Part shown: positions 26,752-54,682 of the stretch, piece after piece | Numbering within the stretch: the stretch's first letter is position 1 | Layout: every line of letters starts with the position of its first letter | Origin: Lactarius indigo | Lineage: Eukaryota; Basidiomycota; Agaricomycetes; Russulales; Russulaceae | Direction of reading: 5' to 3' | Length of the DNA: 64,000 nucleotides | Assembly: GCA_025766275.1 (NCBI GenBank) | Contig: JAFKAC010000095.1 | Coordinates: 124,001-188,000 of the forward strand | Program-made: the position numbers and the translations under genes | Notes under the pieces: model-generated | Database searches by the model: none | Told to the model about the DNA's origin: nothing | Seen by the model: only the letters and a program-made list of their open reading frames with translations

Positions 26752-29700
26752 TTACTCCTCCTCGCTGCGGATGCAGTCGGCAGTGATGCCAAGATACTGA
26801 CGTAGGCGGATGAAGTCGACTTTTCCCAGCGGTTTGGTAAAGATGTCAGCCGTGTTATTTTTTGAGGGTACGCGGGAAACTGTGATGTCGCCGGAGAGGA
26901 CTTGTTCGCGAGTAAAGTGATACTTGACGCGGATGTGTTTGGTGTGGGAGTGCCAGACATGGTCTTCCGCTAATCGAGAGGCGGTGTCATTGTCACATAG
27001 TAGACGGGTAGGTGAGGACGGGAGCAGGCGCAAGCCGGAGAGGAGCTGCCGCAGGAAGATCGCTTCGTGTGTGGCCTCATGCAGGGCGATGTATTCGGCG
27101 TAGCAGGATGAGTCGGCGACAGTGGCTTGCTTGCGGGAACACCAGGACACCATGCCCGAGCCTAGAGTGAAGCAGTAGCCCCCAATAGACCGGCTAGTAT
27201 CGACGCAGTTAGCATAGTCTGAGTCAGAGTATCCAGCCAAGCTTAGTGCGTTACGTCCGCCCAGTGTTAGCGTGTATGAGCGGGTACCTTTGAGGTACCG
27301 TAGGACACGGATAGCGGCGGCCCAGTGCTCGGGTCGATAACAGTCCAAGAACGAGGATAGACGACCGACAGCGTAGGCGATGTCAGGTCTCGTTGCCACC
27401 GCAAGGTACATGAGGCTGCTGACGAGTGAACGGTATGGGGTGTGCTCTATCCACTCAGAGACCTCGGGTGGTATTGGTAGTGTCTTGTCTGGTCGACGGA
27501 GCTGGAGTCCAGCCACCATCGGTGTGTCGGTTGGGTGCGCGTCGTTCTGGTTATACTGCTCGACCAGACGGTCGATCTTCGCGGTTTGTGAAAGGGAGAT
27601 TAGGCGTTTCGAGTGGTCGCGGGATATGGCTATGCCCAGAGCATACTTGGCCGGTCCTAAGTCGGTTATATCCCACTGGGCTCTCAGTTTGTCGCATAGC
27701 CAAGAATTGCCGTCTGGGGAGGACGCAGCAGAGATGATGTCGTCGACATGGACCACGAAGATGATGACACCGTCGGGTGTTTCCCGGCGGTATACGCACC
27801 ATTCGCATGGGAGGCGCTCGAAGCCCCACTGCGTCACGGCGTTGTGGAAGGTTTGGTTCCATATACAGCTTGCTTGCTTCATCCCGTATATACTTTTCAT
27901 TAGTTTCATCACCCAGTCCTCTTTTCCTTCGGCTTCGAAACCGGGGGGTTGTTCCATAAACATGGTCTCCCCCTCAGGTAGGATGCCGTGGAGGAAAGCC
28001 GTCTTGATGTTGAATTGTTGGACGTCCCAGTCGAGGGTTGCGGCGATGTGTAGAATGGAGCGGAAAGATTCAAGGCGTACCATTGGAGCTGTGGTCTTGT
28101 CGTAGTCGATGCCCCACCGCTGAGCGAACCCCTTGGCGACGTAACGTACTTTGTAACGCACGACTTTGCCGGTGTCGTCCCTTTTCTGTTTGCAGACCAG
28201 CTTCCCTTTCAGGGGACGATGGCCGGGCGGTACTTCTGAGCGGGGTACTAGTATAAAGACTTTTAGGTCTTCGAGGCTCTTCAGTTCTTCACGCCCGCCA
28301 GCGATCCAATACTCCCGTTCTGGGGAGGCGAGCGCTTGTGCCCAACTGGGCTCGTTGTCCGGCTCGAGTAGGGGTTCCAGGGAGCCATCACTGAGGGCGG
28401 CGAGAGCGTCGTCGACAGGGAGTGGTTCCTCGAAACAGAGGTCAGCAGGCAATAAGTCATGCGTATCTCGTACGTCGGAATACTGCGAGAGTATTGCATA
28501 CGCGTGGTCGGCCTGTGTTTGAGGTGTCGCAGAGCGGGATGACGCTCGCTCCTCCTGACGGCGCGTGCTGGATTGTCGCGCGGCAGCTATGGCCGCTGCG
28601 AGGCGAGGTCCAGGGCGTAAGCCGTCATCGGTCGTCATCCGCGTGGAGGGCACGGGGACACGGGAGGTGCGCCGCGGAGGGGGAGGCGGTATGTACGGTT
28701 CAGGGGATGGGGAAAGGGGAGTCATCGGAGAGAGGGGAGGGAGGGGTGGAAGGTTTGTGGGGGGATTGGTGGTGATTATTTGAGGGATGGAGGTGTTTGC
28801 CGGTGCTGTAGGATTGACGTTATTGGAGTTGCTATCGATTGTAGGATTGACGTTATTGGTTTCGTTATCTATTGTAGGATTAGAGTCATGTGCGACGGTA
28901 TCGTAAGGGGCGAGGCAATCAAGACTGGGGTCATCATTAGGTAATGAAAGTGAAGAAAACGGTTGCTCTGATATATCCGTATTGGGGAACTTCGGCGTAG
29001 GGCTGGGGGAATCCCAAGAAGGAGGTGCGGAAGAAGAAGACATGCCGAGTACAGTACTGGGGTGTAGGGGAGATGGTTCAGAATCTAGATGTTCTTTAAA
29101 TGTGACATGGTAAGAATTAAAGACGCGAGAAGAGGAGGGGTCCCAGAGGCGATAAGCCTTTGAGTGAGGAGCATACCCGATTAGGACACAGGGGGTCGAC
29201 CGTTGATAGATTTTCGAGAGTGCCAGGGTGTGGAGCGCGAAAGCGCGGCAGCCGATCTCTCTTAAATGGGATAGCAAGGGACGCTGGCCGAACCAGAGTT
29301 TGTAAGGGGTCTTTCCATTGTTGGCAGTGGCGGCGGTCAGGGTCGTGAGGTATGCTGCCGTGGAACAAAATTCGTCCCAAAGGGACGCTGGTGCGTTGCA
29401 TGCGATGCGCATTGCGCGGGCCTTCCCGAGGATGGTTCTGTGCAGGCGTTCGGCCCTTCCATTCTGTGCCAACGTATAGGGGGCGGTGAGCTGATGATCG
29501 ATCCCTTCGGCTTCGCACCAATGGCGCACTTGTGAGGAAACAAGTTCGCCGTTATCAGTGAGAAGGATACGGAGTTTGGTGTCGCTCTGCACAGTAACCG
29601 CTTTGTGCCAAGTTTGGATCGCGGCACAGGCATCGGATTTAGAACGGAGGGGAATGCTCCAAATGTAACCGGAAAAATCATCGATTAAGTTCATGGAGTA

Positions 29701-31706
29701 AACGTTGCCGGAGCGAGAAGTAACGGCCATTGGCCCACACAAATCCACGAAGACTCTTTCCAACTTCCTTTCCGCCTTACGACCCTCCCGCGTCTTGGGA
29801 ACTGATGATCGGGACTGCTTGCCGAGTGCGCAGTGATCACATTTGGCTGGCAGTGAGGATAAATCGATCGGCATACCTGTGGAGACATTACCCTTTGCCA
29901 TTTCGATCACTGTGCGATTGTTGCAGTGACCGAGCCGGCGGTGCCAGGTCTCTACATCTGGCACCCTGGCGTACAAGGCGGTGGGTTGCTTTGCAGGTTG
30001 CCGTCCTCTTGCCAAGGTGGACGGGGTTTGCGTGGTGAGGGTGTAAAGGCGCTTCGTAGGCGAGAGGACGCCGCGCACGAGCACAGTGTTGCTTTTGTTG
30101 GTGACCCAGCAGGTTTTGGAGTCGAAGTGGGTGGTATAGTTGCCGCAACTGTTCAGGGCAGGTATGGAGATCAGTCGCACAGTTGAGTCTGGGATGTAAA
30201 GGACATTGGTCAAGCGTAGGGTATGGCCGCTGGCGATACGCAGCTCAATGTCACCCACGCCGACGGCATAGATGGCAGATCTGGCAAGCCCCTTGACTGG
30301 GTGACGCGGGATGTTCCGAAGATTTTTGAAGTCGGATGCATCTGGTGAGATATGGCAGGTTGCGCCTGTATCGAGGATGAATGGCATTTCAGCCGCGCGT
30401 GCTGAGCTACGGGGCGTTGTTGAGTAAGCCACAGTGCCTTCAGGGGGCACGTTAGGTGCTGCAGCATTTTCGGCCCAGTTGATAGAAGCGCGCGCATCCC
30501 CGGTAGTAGCAAGCATTGCGTAGTACTCCTCCTGATCGTATTCGGCCATAGCGATGGAGGCGGAATCTGCGTCCACGCTGTTCACGGGCTGTGTGGTCAT
30601 GTTGGCTTCGGAGACGAGCATGTAGCACTTCCCGTTGATGGTTACGGTGTTGTTGCGTTTCGGCGGTTCTGTGGCAGCTGCCGCTTGCGGCGCGTTGTTG
30701 GTCTGGTTGGTGTTGTTGTTGCGGTTTGAGCGCGATTGCTGTCTGGTCGCCGCAGCAGTCCTCTGCACCGCCCGCGCTTCATCAAGGGATTTGCCTGCCA
30801 TCTGGCCTCCCGGGGAGATGCAAAACTCGGTGCGATGGTTGCTGCGTTTGCAGTTGGCACAGGCCGGTCTGGTTTTGGTCATGCTCGTGGTTGCCGCCAG
30901 AGCAGTATTCTCTCCCTGTACAGTGGTGAGTGGCATGCCCAAGACTTCGCGCCGTTGGAGCAACTGTTCCTCGCGAAGAACGCGCTCTTTGACTTCGACG
31001 GATGTGATGGACGCGTTCGACAGCATTTCGTTGATGGACGATTGCAATTGGGGAAGGGGGTCGAGTGAGTTGATATAGAGGAGAATCTTGAGTTTGTCAT
31101 CGTCCATTTTCCCCATTTTGATGAATCGTTCATGCAGGCTGTCGATGTCATCTAAGGTTCGGCATATGTTTAGTGGGGGCTCAAGTGAGACGCGGACGTC
31201 GAGAGCCTTCTTCATGAGGTGGACCTGGGCGTGCGGGCCCAGGTTCTCGTGGCTTTTCCGCAGAGCGTTGTAGACTTCATGGGAATATTTGAACTTCTTA
31301 GCGATTCCGTATTCTGCGTTTGAGACGTGTTCCAAGATGAAGGCACGGAGGGCGCGATCGCAGCTCTTCCAGTTGAGCGCCGCTCTTGGGTGAAGGGCAG
31401 GATCAGGACATGGAAGTGATCCGTCAAATAATAGGAGAAGTTTCGTTGGTCGATGACAAGGTTCAAGCGTCGATCCCATTCCTCCCAGTTGGATTTCAAA
31501 CGATCGAGTCGAAGCTCCGCCAGCCAGTTTGGATCTGATGTGAATTGTTTTTCATTTATGACGACATCGGCTGGTCAGCTGGAACCTCCTGTGCCGCCAG
31601 TAGTGTTGCCAGTGCCCGCGGCGCCTGGTGGATTGCTAGCTCCAGATCCCCCGGTGGGGGTGTTGCCTGAGCTGACTGTGTTGCCTGAGCCGCCAGTGGT
31701 CGACAT
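26752..31706 (-). pseudogene. E2 gag-pol polyprotein, nearly intact
   Basis: A 1575-codon open frame (26752-31479) holds gag (UBN2-like), the knuckle CANCKRSNHRTEFC (30,810-30,860) and protease FILDTGATCHISP (about 30,340). Gag-pre-integrase follows (WHRRLGH, CDHCALGK), then integrase with VDLCGPM, LLTDNGELVSS and QNGRAERLHRT (29,400-29,780). RT has the box FVVHVDDIIS (about 27,740; HVDD instead of YVDD). RNase H has GYSDSDYANC and the terminal TKHIRVKYHF. The true start is probably the ATG ending at 31706, in another frame. That N-terminal part has a TGA near 31,575 and loses frame near 31,430, where one base appears missing. RT, RNase H and integrase look functional; gag does not. Confidence 0.92.
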
Positions 31707-34615: not shown

Positions 34616-34794
34616 GCGCTCCTTGTTCTCCATTAGCACACTCCTTTGTCCCACATGTAGAGCAACATCCCTTGTATTCTGTGACCCTATGTTGCTTCTC
34701 TTGTACTAGTGTCACTCTCCTGTATAGTATAAGTAGTAGGCTTGTATGCTCCTGGTCCACATCAGTTCCTCACTGTTGTGTGCCAGGTATGTTC

Positions 34795-35223
34795 TGTCAC
34801 GATCACGTGACATCGTCACATCATGTCACGCAATGTCCACGTTCAAGTTCTGACCCTCGAAAGTTTTACAGAAGTTGTGTATCGCTCAGAGCACGCCTTA
34901 TGGTGCTAAGATTCTGAATCATCTACGTAGCAATCAATAGTGACGTGACTTACAGATAACGGTCCCTGAAAACCCCAGTATGTACGAGTATAAGATGTAG
35001 TTCATTGAGTAGCACAAACTTTGTCTACTCTTAGTCCTTTGAAACCAATCTACAGTTGTCTTGTCTCGCCTTGCCCGAACTCCCCTCTCTCATGTAATTG
35101 CCCTCAGCTTGAGCCATGATTACCCCGACTTCAACTTAGTCATTGACTAAGTTCCGACACTACCTGCCCTTACCTTGGGCCCGAATTGGAACACGTCACA
35201 GATGGTCCATTGGTACCATGACA
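34795..35223 (+). repeat. G3 5' LTR
   Basis: Termini are TGTCACG and CATGACA. TATAAGATG is at 34989. GTCTACTCTTA (35023-35033) starts 34 nt later and pairs with the primer site. Confidence 0.95.
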
Positions 35224-35234
35224 TAAGAGTAGAC
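35224..35234 (+). promoter_or_regulatory. G3 self-priming primer-binding site
   Basis: TAAGAGTAGAC directly follows the LTR and is the exact complement of LTR positions 35023-35033. Confidence 0.7.
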
Positions 35235-37310
35235 CTCTTACCCTGCCACGAACGAGGCACAAATCATTCTCACAAACTACCAGATGAGACAATCAATCTC
35301 TCCTGTAGCCCGAAACCCTGGATTGCTGTGAGAAAGGACGATAGATCCCCCTCACACGCATGAACCCCGATTGCCGCAGAATGAGGTGTAAAGCGTTCCC
35401 AGAAATTGTGAACCGCAGAACGAGCCGATCGAGCTCCTCTGTAACCAGAACCTTATGCGTAACAATCCCCGAGTGGACACATAGCACACCAACACTCAGT
35501 GCAATCAATACTGCGAGTCACCAATGAAACCGAACCACAATGGATGATCTTAGAACAGGGGCTGTTGCTGCTGGACGAGGTGAAACACATCCCCACGAAA
35601 CCACGACTTGTGTGCATGACAGTCCCCACACGGACATACAGCACCCAGAGTCAGGACACACAGTGGATAACCTGAGACAACACGAGTATATTGAACCAGC
35701 TAGTAGACACGATGTAAGACATGCGACAAAGGATGACCCAGAACCACCATCCTTCATCAACAAAAGAATCGACTCGACGCCCCTGAACCGCGCAATGGAC
35801 TGCACAAGTGAACGATCCCCAGAATGGACCAGTAGTACACAGGCAGCTCATGAGATGAGCACAAAGCAACCTGGTCACATTGAACTCAGACAACCCTTGG
35901 AACAAATCAGCAACATGCAGACGATTTATGGAATGAGCGCAAAACGACTCAACGACACAGGAGTTGGCACGAATGAACCCCACGCCCAACGACTTGAGCA
36001 CGCGGACACGGATTCGCGTGATAACTGCGAAGAAACGCGAACGACAAAGCACAGAACGCTGTATCATGAAAAGGACCGACAAATCCCCGAAACCAATTAC
36101 GGACCTGCACAGAAGGAGCGAATAAACGAAACAGATATCACTAGATCGCCGAGTAAAGAATGACAAGAAAATGAGTCACAAGAAGACGACTCACAAAAGC
36201 AGCGACACAGAACCCGAGGACCTAATAGTGAAGAGAAGGTCACTCGACCCCCAAGCAAAGACAAACCTAAAGGGACATTAATCAGAGATGACGTGGATAT
36301 AGTCGACCGGTGTCAACAAAAACATGACAGAACTGAGATGGAACCACGCACCTACGAACGCAACTCGACATACATCATCAACACAGGAAAATCGATGACA
36401 TGTAGTCACCCCCAACCCATGAGCGTCAAAATAAAACCGATTACTTCTCAGACAGAAGTACAACGGGGCCTTTGATCAGAGACCTCAATAACAGATAACA
36501 AAACAAGAACTGGGAACCTCTATGACGACGAGCCAACAGACGATCCAGAGAGATCGACAAACGGAGCGATGACACGTGCCTGGCAGACGATCATCAGAGA
36601 CGCAAAGGGTACAACAAGGAACTACCTGTCGAACTTGTATGATGGATACATGGAAGACAACCAAGTCGAAGCCCGTGTAGAACCACTACACAAGGAGACG
36701 CACAGAATGATACACAATAAGCGACCAAGTTGAAGCCCGTGTCAAACCATGACACGTGGAGATGCACTGAACAAATATATTGATCAGATAAGACGAAGCC
36801 TGTGTAATGAAAATACATGAGGAGACGCACCGCATGACCAAAGGACAGCGAACCCTGGCCAAATCGTTACGTCTGATGAGACAGTAAGAAGGAGTACAAA
36901 CGAACAATGTCTCGAAGCACTTGACGAAGCATCAGCAGAAATACCGGAGGAAACGCAAGAGAACAAACCTCCATGGATAACGATATCACAACATTCACGA
37001 AATGGGCCAACTGGACTGAAAAAGGCCAGCGACACCATTACACCTGTCAAGGCGATGAGACTGTATGTGCCTAAGGAAACACGAGAACATGAACTCCTGC
37101 CAGTAACAATGTCAGGACCCCCACAAAACAACTGAACTAAAGAAGTACCTACATACAAACAGCGTCGACAGGAAAGACAATGCCTCCAGTGTAAAAGACC
37201 AGGATATCAGGTTTGCGAATGCCCGGCCAAGCGAATATCAACAGAACAGATCGCGACTGAAATCCGAAAGATGAACGCCACTGCTAGGCGAAAAACGATC
37301 ATGTGAATGC
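35235..37310 (+). pseudogene. G3 gag remnant
   Basis: A hydrophilic, Thr/His/Arg/Glu-rich reading frame (35540-36163) is followed by fragmented sequence. A knuckle-like CLQCKRPGYQVCEC (37181-37222) has tyrosine where CCHC needs histidine, a likely C-to-T change. Many stops follow. The gag assignment rests on position and the knuckle only. Confidence 0.6.
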
Positions 37311-37599
37311 TGAGACTTGACGAGGCCACCCTGAAACAAATTGTGACTGAACTCCAGAGTGCAGATGTCAATACATGACGAAAAATGGTATCATGACTCA
37401 CAGAAAAACTGGAAAATGAACAAGAGGATGAGAACGCCGAAAGCAATGAGGATACGGCAGTAAAAGCACTCGTGAATCACGTACCCAAAGAAGAGTATCA
37501 CGACGGAGTTACTGCTAAACTCACTTCAAAGACGCCGAACAACTCCATTGACCAAAGCGAAACAAGAAGCGAAACCCCGAACAGACACATCGAGATCGA

Positions 37600-40110
37600 C
37601 GAAAATACGTCGACTAAAGCAATTATGACTTGCAAAAGACTCCGTCATGACGCAGTAGCAATGCTCGACTTGAGGACTGTGGACAGATTCACCAATTGTA
37701 AAAGGGAGGAGAAATCAAACCTCGAACTAAAACTCTGCGAATTTTGACCCATCGCAGGTACAAGCAAAGTATCAAACCAACGAGATGACATGACCTTCGC
37801 ATACCGAGAAACAGCCCAATGCAGGTTACCCACCTCTACCACACCTCCATGCACCATGAATATAAGGGAAACTCAACCAGCAATCAGCCAGAACAACAAA
37901 GAAATACCCAGAGTGGAGTGGTACAGCACATTGCAACGAGGCACCAGGGTCGACACCGTCGCACAGCAACGTCAGGAGAGGAAAAGAAGAAAGTCATTAA
38001 GAGAGTGTTACACAGACCAGACAATAACGCCGTTGGGAGAAACTGAACAGAAGTTCCCACCACAACAACATGACGATCATGTGACCACATCAGTACTCAA
38101 TAAACCAATGATCACATCGAACAAAATATACTCGCTAAACAAGCCCAAATGCTTGGACGGTTCTATGACGGAATGCCTCATAAAAGAATGTCTTCACAAA
38201 TCTCAGTCACCCCTCTTCTGCTTGGGAATGAAAGACGAAAAACGACAACTGAGATACAACCCACTAAAACAATTGACGACGTGGAATGTGTGAGTGATCC
38301 TACTAATTCCAGACATTCTAGATCAGCTGACTGACAAAATGTGCTTTACCACGTCCGACATACGTCAAATGTATGCCAAGATCTGGGGTCAGGATAGGAA
38401 ACAACGCCAGATTACGACTACAGGACTAGTCGGACCAACGATCGTACCCTCTTGGTTGACCGATTCTCTGATGAAGCTCCAAATGAATGCCAAAACACAT
38501 CTCTCACTGCGTATCTTAAACTTACTCGACAGCACTGTTCACTTCTTTGGACAATATGACAATTTTAATCATTCTCAGCTACGCGCGCCACAAACTACTC
38601 TGTGTCTTGATACAAACAAATCGGACCACTTCAGTTGACAACATCGATCACGAACACTCTCTACCATCCAACAAAGTTGCTGTACCCTTGGGACTCTTGG
38701 ACGCCAACAACTATTTACTCCGCGATACACCGAACCTGTCCGACCTCTTACACAAATGACCAACCCCCTTTTATACACACTGAAGCACGCTATGACACTA
38801 CCCTCCCCCATCGATTGTAGTCACTATGTGTACGATCGGGAACTCTTTGTGCCAATACATGTTCTTGCACACTGGCGACGTCTGATTGACGACACACAAT
38901 ACCTGGTCATCGTCCTCGCAAATCTCCATCACCACCTGGACACCTGCCCCATCCTGGTGAACTACGTCCTTCGACATTGTCATGTCCATAACACACACTT
39001 TCATACCACTACCCTTTCTCGTCACCCTGCCCGTACTTCGCCCGATACTGACCTTTTCCCTGTTGTCGTTCTACCCTTGTTACGCCTCCTCATAGCCATT
39101 CAGACTGCCATGACTGACGTTCATTCCCTCCACCCCCCGACACATGGTGCTGCCGACCCTCGGCCCGGCAACGACCGTCTTGTGATTGCAGACGATCCCC
39201 TTCTGAGGAGGGGGGTAATTCAGTCGCTTCACGACTCAATCACCATGAAGCACCCACACGAAAACAAAAATCTCCCGAAATTACCCCATGCACCCTCGTC
39301 GTCCATTGAGTTGCGACGAAATACATCCCGCTTCAACACATTTATCCGGGACTTCGACGCCAAGACCTCCAAGTCTCTCAATTTCATTACCACCACCAAT
39401 CAAAGACGTTCCAAAATCAGAGCCATCATACTGACAAAAGAAAACAGTGACATCGAAAGGATGACTAACCTGTTCAGCAACCATATGCCACCACGCTACG
39501 GACTGCCAAGCAAGACACCATCCGAGTGAGGCCTACGTGTTATCACTATACTCACACGCGCTCCACCAAACATCCATTCAGAATACTGCTCGTACACCAA
39601 TGATCAAACAAAAAGTCTGAGCCAACAACAAGTGCAATGTCTCAAAACTCGTGCCAACCCTCAATGGTACAGCAAATGTACAACACAGTTACTAGTAACG
39701 CTGTCTGCCCACGACACATGACCATCTAAGGAGACAACATGGTACCCATATGAGATAATCACGGGGTCCATACCCTCGACATGTCGGCAGACACCTATCA
39801 TCCTGCGAGCAAGCAACAAACATCTCGCCATGCAGAACGCACTCCGCAGAAATCTCTCATCGATTACAGCGATTAGAAAAGGGTTGATCAGAAATCATCA
39901 AATGACACACAGCGAACCCACGCCACAACCATGTAAACCATCTCATATTTTAGATAAGACACGTTCACCGAAACTGGGGAAGGCCCATGACACGTTCTAT
40001 GAGAAATCGCTCATCCCTGATTGTACAGTCAATACCATCAGAAGCCAAGAGGTACAATCCTCACCTCAATCAACCTTGGAAAACACCAAACGAAATAACA
40101 AACGAATCTT
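37600..40110 (+). pseudogene. G3 pol remnant: protease, RT, RNase H, integrase
   Basis: The sequence is heavily decayed, but the order is legible. A protease-like segment has AMLDLRTVDRF (about 37,660). RT has KSQSPLF, then IPDILDQLTD and FTTSDIRQMYAKIW (38,190-38,400); the YxDD region is not recognisable. RNase H has YDRELFVPIHVLAHWRR (about 38,830-38,890), ending TLSRHPARTSPDTDL. The integrase zinc region has ADDPLLRRGVIQSLHDS (about 39,190-39,240). Core fragments include FITTT and RYGLPSKTPSE followed by TGA where DRG is expected (39,380-39,530). A GPF/Y-like end has KLGKAHDTFYEKSLIPD (about 39,975-40,030). The family is clear from collinearity; the copy is dead. Confidence 0.75.
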
Positions 40111-41050
40111 CGACCATCAAACACCAGTCAAGAAGATGACGCCGCTATCAATACGACGAAAGAAACGCTCCACCATACATGATAGGGTAAAACCCCTAGA
40201 TAACGACCAGATACCAGCGCAACTCGCACAACATAAGAGGCAAGCACCATTGAACATCAACCCCACCGCCACAAATTCCCTAACGATGGACAAACACCCC
40301 CCACCAACCACAACTATCACAGCTGACCAGCTCCCTGCCCAATGGACGTTCGAATCCGACAACGGACACACAGCCCCCGATCGTCTCCCAATCAACAAGG
40401 AGAGACACACTCGCCTGACATCAGCGCCATTGCCATCTCCTACCACCGAAGGCCCTGATGAACTAGGGCGACCCATCATCACTCAGGACCACAACAGCAC
40501 AACTGAAAGCCATATCCAGGGAAACACAGACGTCGACCAGGACAAAGGATCACCCCATGTCAATTCAGAGGCAAATGTCCATTGCCAACACCACCTATAC
40601 GACCTAGTGAATGCAGATGCTACGTTTGAAATGAACAATTGCACGTTTCATGTTCACAGTTACTTCTTCACGTGTGAATCACCTTATTTCCGACGACTTT
40701 GGAAAATCGCGGGATCTACGACAGAAACGCCCATCAATCTTAGCAATGATGGACTGATCCCAGTTGAGAACGACACCACCATGGGACCATACTACGTCAT
40801 GCTCAATGAGGTAACGACTGAAGAATTCGAACTACTCCTATGGGTCTTCTATAACTTGGATTACTCGGTGTACAAGGCGACTACTCGAGAATGGACACTA
40901 ATCCTTCGATTAGCACAACAATGGGAGTTCCCCAGGGTCGAAGCCCTATGCTGGAGAGAACTTCTAAACATCGGTTTAGTCGCTCATTCTCCATTACAGG
41001 TCCTGCAAGGTTATTCTTCGCACACTAACGACGAGAACACTCATCACTGA
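40110..41050 (+). CDS. BTB/POZ domain fused in frame behind the G3 integrase end
   Basis: The open frame runs from 39830 to 41050 (406 codons). It starts in the integrase C-terminal region, passes a Thr/Pro-rich linker (about 40,130-40,560) and ends in a fungal-type BTB/POZ domain (about 40,600-41,000). BTB landmarks are FEMNNCTFHVHSYFF, SPYFRRLW, VTTEEFELLLWVFYNLDY and LRLAQQWEFPRVEALCWREL, which match the usual order of helices in fungal BTB proteins. BTB domains mediate dimerisation and partner binding, often with cullin-3 ligases. The domain lacks stops, unlike the RT part upstream. Whether it was captured from a host gene or is a family trait of this retrotransposon cannot be told from one copy. 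Expression is unproven. Confidence 0.72.
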
Positions 41051-41125
41051 CACTACACACGAAACCAACACCATTCGACCCCCAGTCATGAACTTGCGAC
41101 CAAGACAACGCCGTGACGGCTGACT

Positions 41126-41638
41126 GTGATGAATCCCGACCCAGATCACGACGCGTCTCTTGCTATACCACGAGATAGCACGCAACCAGCCACCTCAAAT
41201 GAACCAGAACCTGAAGTGCGACAGCGTCTACCAGCCGTAATCGACCTTGTCGAGGATCACAACCCGACGCCAACACAAGGACAACGTAATGACCGCCGCA
41301 GCACACAAACCAACACCTACCATTGCTGCCATTGCCATGGTGTCGGACACACCAAGGCCTTCTGTCGCCAACCCCACGCTCGGTGTACCCCACAGCGACG
41401 TTGCCCCATTCCACCTTGCCACCCCTATTACAGACTCCAGTGCCCTGCATCGACGACTCCACCCACTAGCACACGTACCTGTACATGGGTACGTGACTCA
41501 CTCTCCCCCACCAGGGCAACCCAACTGACCATGCACCCCCAACGCCGCCGACGCCGCACCACGATTGACAATCAACCAGTAGACAACTACAAATACCCTT
41601 ACGACGTTGACTGGGAAGCTGCCGATCACAGCCCCTAG
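41126..41638 (+). CDS. Short G3 ORF with a CCHC zinc knuckle
   Basis: This 170-codon frame lies between the BTB region and the polypurine tract. It contains an intact CX2CX4HX4C knuckle, CCHCHGVGHTKAFC (about 41,325-41,366), followed by Cys/Pro/Arg-rich sequence. A knuckle normally belongs to gag at the other end of a gypsy element, so its presence here is unusual. It may be a nucleic-acid-binding tail of the polyprotein that lost its frame, or an independent accessory ORF. Confidence 0.5.
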   Translation: MMNPDPDHDASLAIPRDSTQPATSNEPEPEVRQRLPAVIDLVEDHNPTPTQGQRNDRRSTQTNTYHCCHCHGVGHTKAFCRQPHARCTPQRRCPIPPCHPYYRLQCPASTTPPTSTRTCTWVRDSLSPTRATQLTMHPQRRRRRTTIDNQPVDNYKYPYDVDWEAADHSP

Positions 41639-41660
41639 CTCATTTGCGGACGAATGAACC

Positions 41661-41671
41661 AAGAAAGGGGG
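41661..41671 (+). promoter_or_regulatory. G3 polypurine tract
   Basis: AAGAAAGGGGG lies just before the 3' LTR, with three bases between. Confidence 0.75.
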
Positions 41672-41674
41672 CTA

Positions 41675-42103
41675 TGTCACAATCACATGACATCGTGACA
41701 TCATGTCACGCAACGTCCGCATTCAAGTTCTAACCCTCAAAAGTTTTACAGAAGTTGTGTATCGCTCAGAGCATGCCTTATGGTGCTAAGATTCTGAATC
41801 ATCTACATAGCAATCGATAGTGACATGACTTACAGATAACGGTCCCTGAAAACCCCAGTATGTATGAGTATAAGATGTAGTTCATTGAGTAGCACAAACT
41901 TTGTCTACTCTTAGTCCTTTGAAACCAATCTACAGTTGTCTTGTCTTGCCTTGCCCGAACTCCCCTCTCTCGTACGATTGCCCTCGGCTTGAGCCACGAT
42001 TACCCCAACTTCAACTTAGTCGTTGACTAAGTTCCGACACTACCTGCCCTTACCTTGGGCCCGAATTGGAATGCGTCATGGACGGTCTGTTGGTACCGTG
42101 ACA
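41675..42103 (+). repeat. G3 3' LTR
   Basis: It has the same length as the 5' LTR. The differences seen are almost all C/T or G/A at CpG sites. Confidence 0.95.
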
Positions 42104-42488
42104 TGTTCCCTCTTCTCCAATGTAACATCAGTTCCTCACTGTTGTGTGCCAGACAACCTCTTGCTTTACTCTACTTGCACTCCCTGTTGCTGCTTCCAGC
42201 CACTCTTGATATCTCACCACAGTCTCCCTTGTCACTGTGAGTATCATCTCTATGTGTGCTATTCATCACGACTCTAGTGAAACAGTTTACCTTTGCAAAC
42301 CCACTCAGACTCGTGTTGTCATTCCTATCACTGCAATCCACATGGTTGTCTCAATGTTCCTGGAATACAAGGTTGATGAGGATGGGGTGGAGGACACAGG
42401 CAAGTTCTCTCTCATGTGACATGCATACTTAGAAGTCATGAAATATCCTGTGGACATGGACGAAGAGGATGAGTTGGAGGATGGTTGA

Positions 42489-53681: not shown

Positions 53682-54550
53682 TTAGGGCAATGTATACATT
53701 GGGTCGTCTACACTTTGAATGGTACGCGTGGGCTCTAACGAATTGGTCAACAAGAAGTCGCCATCTAAATATAAGACGATGAGTGATTCAGCCGTAGCCG
53801 GTGCCACTTGAAAATACGGACTAGGGGTATCGTTTTCCACAGATCGCCAACGCGCCTCCTCCAAATCCTTAGCGACGCCACTCACAACGTGTCGTTTCAC
53901 GATCCTGTTTGAGGCGGCTGTTGGGTCTAACTTTATGAGCCATCTCTCGTCCAAAAGCCTCCCAGCATCGGCCCACGGGGGGAGTGAGAGGAAGGTATAC
54001 AGTCCTTCTATTATTACGATCCTGTGCTCAGGGAAAATTGTGACAGCGTGCGGAGTTGGATCCTTGATAGTATGATCGAAGGACGGGGCAGTGATCGTGC
54101 ATGTGCCCGACACTGGTTCTCGCAAGCTGCGAACGAACGAGACATAGCCATGACCATCGAATGTCCAGTGGGCGCCCCGCCGGTCGTAGGCGAGCTTAGG
54201 ATCAGGGAATGCATCGAGTTGGGCTCGGGTCAAATGCCAGCCATCGAGACCCACGTGAATAGCTCTTAACCTCCCGGGGGGAGTCGGGCTGTGATTTGAT
54301 GCTGCAACCGACTGGCGATGCACCTCATCCATGGCCAACAATTGGTTGGTTTTGTTGGTGACGAGCACAGCCAAGGTGGATTTACCTGAGGCTGGTATCC
54401 CAGCAATTCCGACTAGCAGGCGGGAATTCGAAGGAATGCTATGTCCCATTGTCAATGAGATGACCAAAGTGGCAGTTGACAGGAACGAATGGCTCACTGG
54501 GAAAGTCGGTCGACGACACCCTCGGCGAGGTGTTGGGCGATCGACTCCAT
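53682..54550 (-). CDS. P-loop kinase of the uridine kinase / phosphoribulokinase type (269 aa)
   Basis: Two exons (54550-54498 and 54438-53682) are joined over a 59-nt intron. The start at 54550 gives a short N-terminal helix, followed by the Walker A motif GIAGIPASGKST (residues about 26-37). A DGWHLTR strand and helix (a usual substrate-side motif of this family), HWTFDGHGY and IVIIEGLY with RHVVSGVAKDLEEAR follow. The Asn/Asp of the last exon segment (YLDGDFLL) completes the fold. The size and motifs match yeast Yfh7-like and bacterial PRK/URK-like ATP-dependent kinases; the substrate is unknown. It is cytosolic as far as can be seen, with no signal peptide. The gene is divergent from the next one, with 132 bp between start codons, and has no internal stops. 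Confidence 0.85.
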
Positions 54551-54682
54551 ACTTGTGTCATAATACTATTACCACACCATACCGATTTGGGTGTGTGGCT
54601 AAATGTGGTCAATTATAAATAAGTTGCCCTGACCCTATCGACTCAACGTTAAGCTTAAGGTCTTAACTTGTACGCTCCTCCC
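54551..54682. promoter_or_regulatory. Short shared 5' region of two divergent genes
   Basis: The 132 bp between two ATGs on opposite strands must hold both promoters and 5' UTRs unless further upstream exons exist. TATAAATAAG near 54,614 is TATA-like. No other motif is claimed. Confidence 0.4.

Follow-up and report, generated by a model that had tools for sequence, protein, structure and literature searches.

In the fungal chromovirus Tf1, the primer-binding site (PBS) is complementary to the 5' end of the element's own transcript. Long terminal repeat (LTR) elements that are coding and enzyme-less are usually viewed as Gag carriers or as the outcome of decay. TR-GAG and similar LTR elements that code for protein but are non-autonomous (PMC8704663) have recently moved, with N-terminal Gag alone as their product. 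Host domains have likewise been captured and kept by gypsy lineages, as in orchids, where giant Ty3/gypsy elements carry an AlkB m6A demethylase domain in an additional open reading frame (ORF) (PMC9289625); a BTB domain joined to transposon-derived sequence (a Crypton-derived domain) is found in KCTD1b, described in PMC3212892 as a conserved vertebrate host gene rather than a mobile element bearing a BTB. We describe here an LTR-bounded element of 7.3 kb (34795-42103) that carries a BTB/POZ domain, located in a 64,000-nucleotide stretch of Lactarius indigo DNA (contig JAFKAC010000095.1, positions 124,001 to 188,000; the window), together with its relatives in one genome (90.3 Mb, 291 contigs), from which all family results derive. 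The product of another window gene (53682-54557, - strand) is 92% identical to a Lactarius indigo protein over 87% of its length, which fits a milk-cap mushroom of the order Russulales.

The family resembles fungal chromoviruses of the Tf1 type in its LTRs, 5-bp target-site duplication (TSD), polypurine tract, 11-nt self-primer PBS and collinear pol, and has a terminal CCHC tail in common with chromovirus relatives in the same genome, but differs from fungal chromoviruses in that reverse transcriptase (RT), integrase and chromodomain are decayed and a BTB has been added in the tail. In contrast to TR-GAG, the product under selection appears to be a C-terminal BTB-CCHC module behind approximately 1,600 mostly drifting codons. 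With a probability of roughly 0.5, we favour the reading that this is a non-autonomous, recently mobile LTR family derived from a self-priming chromovirus, in which the BTB-CCHC module is the selected product and the dead pol frame therefore stays open.

An earlier note on this DNA, made from the sequence alone, had proposed a BTB domain in the ORF at 39830-41050, and Pfam BTB (PF00651) indeed matched residues 262-378 of this ORF (E 3.2e-5; 24.5 bits, cut-off 20.5). In the six window ORFs scanned, BTB was alone above cut-off, and no RT, integrase or GPF/Y domain was detected. An AF2 model of the L031 copy covered the BTB part (block means 59-89) and displayed the BTB fold, but was poorly predicted beyond it (mean pLDDT 48.8), hence the CCHC knuckle is assigned from its motif. 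The proposal that the BTB lies in frame with an integrase end stood only in part, in that a remnant is present in frame, but Pfam recognised neither an integrase nor a GPF/Y domain, and the window remnant is visible solely through collinearity with relatives. The LTR boundaries and target duplication that the note described were recovered at 34795-35223 and 41675-42103, with TGTTC on both sides.

A DNA search with the ORF 39830-41050 retrieved at least 39 matches in the genome. LTR pairs were detected in 13 of the 21 copies examined; those of L031, L032 and L050 were 100% identical over 389-438 bp, that of L042 was 100% identical over 278 bp only, and that of L043 was 99.7% identical. An exact TSD flanked 10 of 11 copies compared (L040 has one mismatch; L041 and L042, whose blastn ends lay off the LTR ends, stand outside this TSD and PBS set). 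Unoccupied sites were found for L050 at two places, where the joined flanks were continuous over all 400 bases (99%), and for L031 at one place (305 of 400 bases, 95%), which is allelic or paralogous. The identical LTR pairs, TSDs and empty sites therefore indicate that the BTB-bearing unit moves, as had been supposed, and enzyme-dead copies show recent insertions. Matches to the N-terminal part formed 25 loci among the scored candidates, grouped by nearness on the contig, with a BTB downstream at 22; of the others, those on C237 and C250 also lack the pre-BTB segment and that on C268 amounts to one weak match. Among these candidates, no full-length copy without a BTB was found.

Several copies share further features. 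L034 and L049 have the same TSD and short flanks (CGATG) and are probably one insertion present twice via duplication or haplotypes, so that copy counts overstate insertions. A second subfamily (L044, L045 and L024-L029) is near-identical (99.3-100% over shared stretches), with a 465-aa BTB-CCHC ORF in most copies; the identity of L044 and L045 (99.7%) extends far beyond the 3' LTR, and at least these two have therefore spread within a larger repeat. L036, L037, L038 and L014 break at the same BTB residue, into the same foreign sequence.

The pol enzymes are lost throughout the copies studied. LTRs, PBS, polypurine tract and 5-bp TSDs are kept, whilst RT has decayed in all five open copies aligned, with no YMDD and large deletions in each (the window copy is not part of this alignment); the loss of RT noted earlier in the window thus extends to its open relatives. 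Neither RVT_1 nor an integrase core nor Chromo was recognised by Pfam in the whole frames of L031, L041 and L043, scanned in pieces, or in the N-terminal and middle parts of L047 and L050. The C-terminal scan for the chromodomain expected of an autonomous chromovirus covered L031, L041 and L043, and these three C-terminal pieces lacked Chromo. An RT with YxDD and an integrase with DDE, also expected of an autonomous element, were not found in the family copies scanned or aligned, and four copies aligned to the related chromovirus tail L051 have lost its integrase and chromodomain motifs. The PBS, by comparison, matched the own LTR over 11 nt, 34-35 nt downstream of the TATA box, in 11 of 11 copies, as in Tf1-type self-priming with a predicted transcript start; as it is kept in all 11, first-strand signals are intact while the enzymes are gone.

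Selection along the frame was estimated as pooled NG86 omega (dN/dS) by segment, from at most 10 pairs, each kept if 0.03<dS<1 with at least 40 codons. Omega was 0.53 for the N-terminal part and 0.62 for the pre-RT part (10 pairs each), 0.70 for RT/RNase H and 0.71 for the integrase (6 pairs each), 0.92 for SH3/chromo (10 pairs), 0.49 and 0.43 for the linkers before and after the BTB (4 and 7 pairs), 0.22 for the BTB (5 pairs) and 0.21 for the CCHC tail (8 pairs). Neutral simulation with a similar CpG-context share gave mean omegas of 0.71 for pol (5-95%: 0.63-0.80), 0.68 for the BTB (0.40-1.07) and 0.79 for the tail (0.42-1.38). Neutral omega depends on the CpG weight, falling at the strongest weight tried to 0.56 for pol, 0.49 for the BTB (5% limit 0.30) and 0.71 for the tail (5% limit 0.38), and the observed BTB and tail values lie below neutral values even there. 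In a window-wise test (pairs with 0.03<dS<1.2; 200 simulations per window), both BTB windows and the last tail window fell below all 200 simulations, the CCHC window and the BTB-CCHC linker ranked at the lowest 2% and 1%, respectively, whilst no N-terminal or pol window lay outside the simulated 5-95% range. Of the 36 pairs among nine copies (kept if 0.05<dS<1.2), 18 were usable for the BTB, with a median omega of 0.23 (range 0.12-0.34), and 25 for the tail, with a median of 0.20; the canonical tails L052 and L053 differ by dN 0.037 and dS 0.477. In these codon comparisons, clear purifying selection was thus seen only in the BTB and the parts behind it, while the pol-derived stretch diverges as if neutral. 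The dN/dS comparison that the note had called for (BTB approximately 0.2, RT 0.7) agrees with its impression that the BTB is the better kept of the two.

Despite this divergence, single open frames span five fetched copies (L031, 2022 codons; L041, 2023; L043, 2043; L047, 2077; L050, 2068), and a sixth, C271, fetched in part, has 2004 codons and no stop; past the BTB, the open frame continues through a CX2CX4HX4C knuckle into a conserved end. Other copies have at least one stop or a broken frame, the stops listed being mostly TGA. The open copies differ by 21-37% in the pol-derived part, yet hold 0 stops there, whereas simulated mutation of 5-10% of that part per open copy introduced a mean of 5-18 stops, with at most 1 in 100 runs stop-free; the copies compared had been picked as open. 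They contain 70-95 CGA codons, with a CpG observed/expected ratio of 1.30-1.38, and 78 of 87 LTR-pair differences in six copies are transitions in a CpG/TpG context, a pattern of strong CpG decay in line with the many TGA stops of dead copies. The open copies would accordingly be young, with stops appearing fast once a copy decays.

Under the favoured reading, copying would require foreign RT and integrase, supplied in trans by related chromovirus enzymes, for which C174-like chromoviruses, with an integrase, a chromodomain and a similar LTR, are candidate helpers. The BTB may serve in multimerisation or partner binding and the CCHC may bind RNA, such that the element's own RNA would enter the helper's particles, the module being a packaging adaptor. 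As the module is encoded last in a single frame, upstream stops would be selected against and removed even though pol residues drift, and if this removal works on each copy separately, the product would be expected to act on its own RNA and to prefer the transcript from which it was translated (cis preference). More tentatively, we suggest an LTR retroelement without enzymes of its own whose polyprotein is a drifting tether and whose selected output, a captured BTB and a retained zinc knuckle, acts in cis on its own RNA; such a protein-coding parasite of chromoviruses would be a natural record of LTR cis preference. In this family, a host-type BTB is under selection within an element, where it is encoded near the end of a frame of approximately 2,000 codons with a neutral-like middle that is stop-free in six copies. 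A single family thus makes it possible to test both whether LTR parasites enjoy cis preference and what a retroelement gains from a BTB, be it capture of RNA, hijacking of a helper or escape from control by the host.

A number of observations weigh against this account. Seven copies have LTR pairs that are at least 99% identical. The frame is open in four of them (L031, L041, L043 and L050); L032 (LTRs 100% identical) and L042 (100% over 278 bp) each have one in-frame stop, and the frame of L048 is broken. There are thus young copies that bear a stop or have decayed quickly, although fast stop gain may account for the stops of L032 and L042. Though it did so as part of a larger repeat, the second subfamily proliferated with a stop common to its copies ahead of the 465-aa BTB frame. 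Only 52-76% of the indels that separate open copies have a length divisible by three (chance, one third), a count made on a noisy alignment. Single windows of pairs in pol vary in omega from 0.24 to 1.42, the N-terminal part (0.53) may be selected too, and the copies are mosaic and the pairs therefore not independent; moreover, one genome was used, omega comes from simple counts, and both trans-copying and RNA packaging are steps that we infer.

The main rival to a packaging adaptor is a role of the BTB as a Cullin-3-type or other host-factor adaptor against host silencing, a counter-defence in which no RNA is packaged. Purifying selection on the BTB would suit it, as would the predicted fold, which resembles many BTB proteins including Cul3 partners and the vaccinia A55 BTB; membership of the Cullin-3 adaptor class is, however, a resemblance of predicted folds, and Skp1 folds score almost as high. 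A diffusible factor would also help all copies alike and by itself gives no account of stops missing copy by copy, and we judge this role unlikely, if the most serious competitor. Nonsense-mediated decay could likewise account for the missing stops in a neutrally drifting stretch, were early-stop mRNAs destroyed before copying and the protein irrelevant, but it does not explain omega of approximately 0.2 at the BTB and CCHC tail; as the sole cause it seems improbable, and it may act in addition to selection on the protein.

The earlier note had placed the BTB at the chromodomain position and suggested a targeting role. A new protein-binding domain does lie downstream of a decayed chromodomain in the same frame, but in the C-terminal tail, approximately 80 residues beyond the end of homology to relatives, and the integrase core that it would steer has itself decayed, so the positional claim fails and integration targeting is unsupported and highly doubtful. 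LTR elements do carry host fragments, and host BTB genes exist in this genome; a functionless passenger is nevertheless already disfavoured, and very improbable, given a BTB omega of 0.12-0.34 below neutral simulation and a BTB at 22 of the 25 N-terminal loci. Also disfavoured, and scarcely credible, is an autonomous element in which the pol-derived stretch is a working, highly divergent polymerase and integrase; its frame is open and weak RNase H traces occur in L031 (E 0.013) and L047 (E 0.15), but YMDD is missing, internal deletions are present and omega is in the neutral range.

Returning to the favoured reading, descent from Ty3/gypsy chromoviruses is indicated by LTRs with TG..CA ends and a TSD, and by decayed remnants in the order RT-RNase H-integrase, collinear with intact relatives. 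The L031 middle part gave 2307 first-look candidates in the genome, of which 64 were scored, and these include 13 loci that do not belong to the family and whose frames are 1,996-2,139 aa long. Three related tails, L051 (of C174), L052 and L053, have by eye the same kind of CCHC tail, and in these three readable tails no BTB match was found. L051, the sole related tail covered far enough upstream, matched SH3_Tf2-1 (E 4.1e-17) and Chromo (E 2e-14), with an integrase core by eye, and the C174 LTR pair matches the window LTR at 83-84% identity over 241 of its 429 bases. Homology of the pre-BTB segment to other elements mostly stops at query-piece residues 193-197, the point some 80 residues before the BTB, and the junction alignment to relatives is collinear on both sides; the BTB was therefore gained within the C-terminal tail, at a point upstream of the CCHC that the tail already had by ancestry. 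Residues 1-700 of L031 matched only family loci and one weak place. Sub-threshold matches to CENP-B_N (E 0.01-0.1) were seen at approximately residues 600-670 of the N-terminal pieces of L031, L041 and L047.

The BTB is a host-type domain, as the note had entertained. A profile search of PDB sequences returned weak matches only (Kaiso BTB, E 0.015), and in protein databases neither the 465-aa tail from the second subfamily (E<=1e-3) nor the L031 tail (E<=0.01) found a match; an IMG/VR scan with A1 gave 40 pattern matches and no relative. Limited literature searches on BTB in LTR, gypsy and fungal elements located no BTB in an LTR element; the word is absent from the main texts of PMC3248453, PMC10799480, PMC2864245 and PMC9289625, and appears in portions of PMC7550596 only for arbuscular fungi. 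In the host BTB paralog L055, a candidate intron of 57 nt directly follows LLWVFYN, a site at which the elements are continuous, which is suggestive of capture from spliced RNA; against this, many host BTB matches are also uninterrupted. A 311-aa BTB-like ORF, L054 (G000:C238:172250-173250), shares 38% identity with the BTB of the element (tblastn), has no gap at the L055 intron site, has an end like that of the element and gave no Pfam BTB match; it could be either an ancient relic or a copy that has been co-opted. Host BTB genes also form large arrays that occur twice (G000:C218 and C259), probably as two haplotypes in the assembly.

The window element itself is dead, although its family was active recently; its frame holds stops, and its LTRs are only 93.0% identical, which marks it as an old copy. 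Within the TGTTC duplications (34790..34794 and 42104..42108), all its parts lie on the + strand, beginning with the 5' LTR (TGTCA...TGACA; 34795..35223), which has a TATA-like box at 34989-34994 and the self-primer sequence at 35023-35033. The PBS TAAGAGTAGACC (35224..35235) is complementary over 11 nt to its own LTR, 34 nt past the TATA box, as in Tf1-type self-priming. There follow the N-terminal part of the long frame, which is specific to the family and is broken here (35468..37300, right border approximate; tblastn to L031), and the decayed RT, RNase H and integrase N-terminal remnants (37300..39530, borders approximate); L031 pol was aligned to intact RTs, and window pol is collinear with L031, with no Pfam domain in the scanned ORFs. 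The decayed integrase C-terminus/SH3/chromodomain remnant in the BTB frame (39722..40340, right border approximate) precedes the BTB/POZ domain (40613..40963), delimited by Pfam, alignment and the predicted fold of the L031 copy. The window frame ends at 41050, whereas in open copies it continues via the CCHC knuckle to the 3' end; the BTB-plus-tail stretch here has 2 TGA codons, past which the CX2CX4HX4C knuckle (41324..41365) and the conserved end (PHARC..RRC ... YPYDVDWEAA; 41366..41638) lie in the same frame, followed by the polypurine tract CAAGAAAGGGGGCTA (41660..41674) and the 3' LTR (41675..42103). Three diverged 63-nt tandem units are also present within the element (36645-36834), and elsewhere in the window a copia-type element (26752-31551, - strand) has a 1,599-aa open frame.
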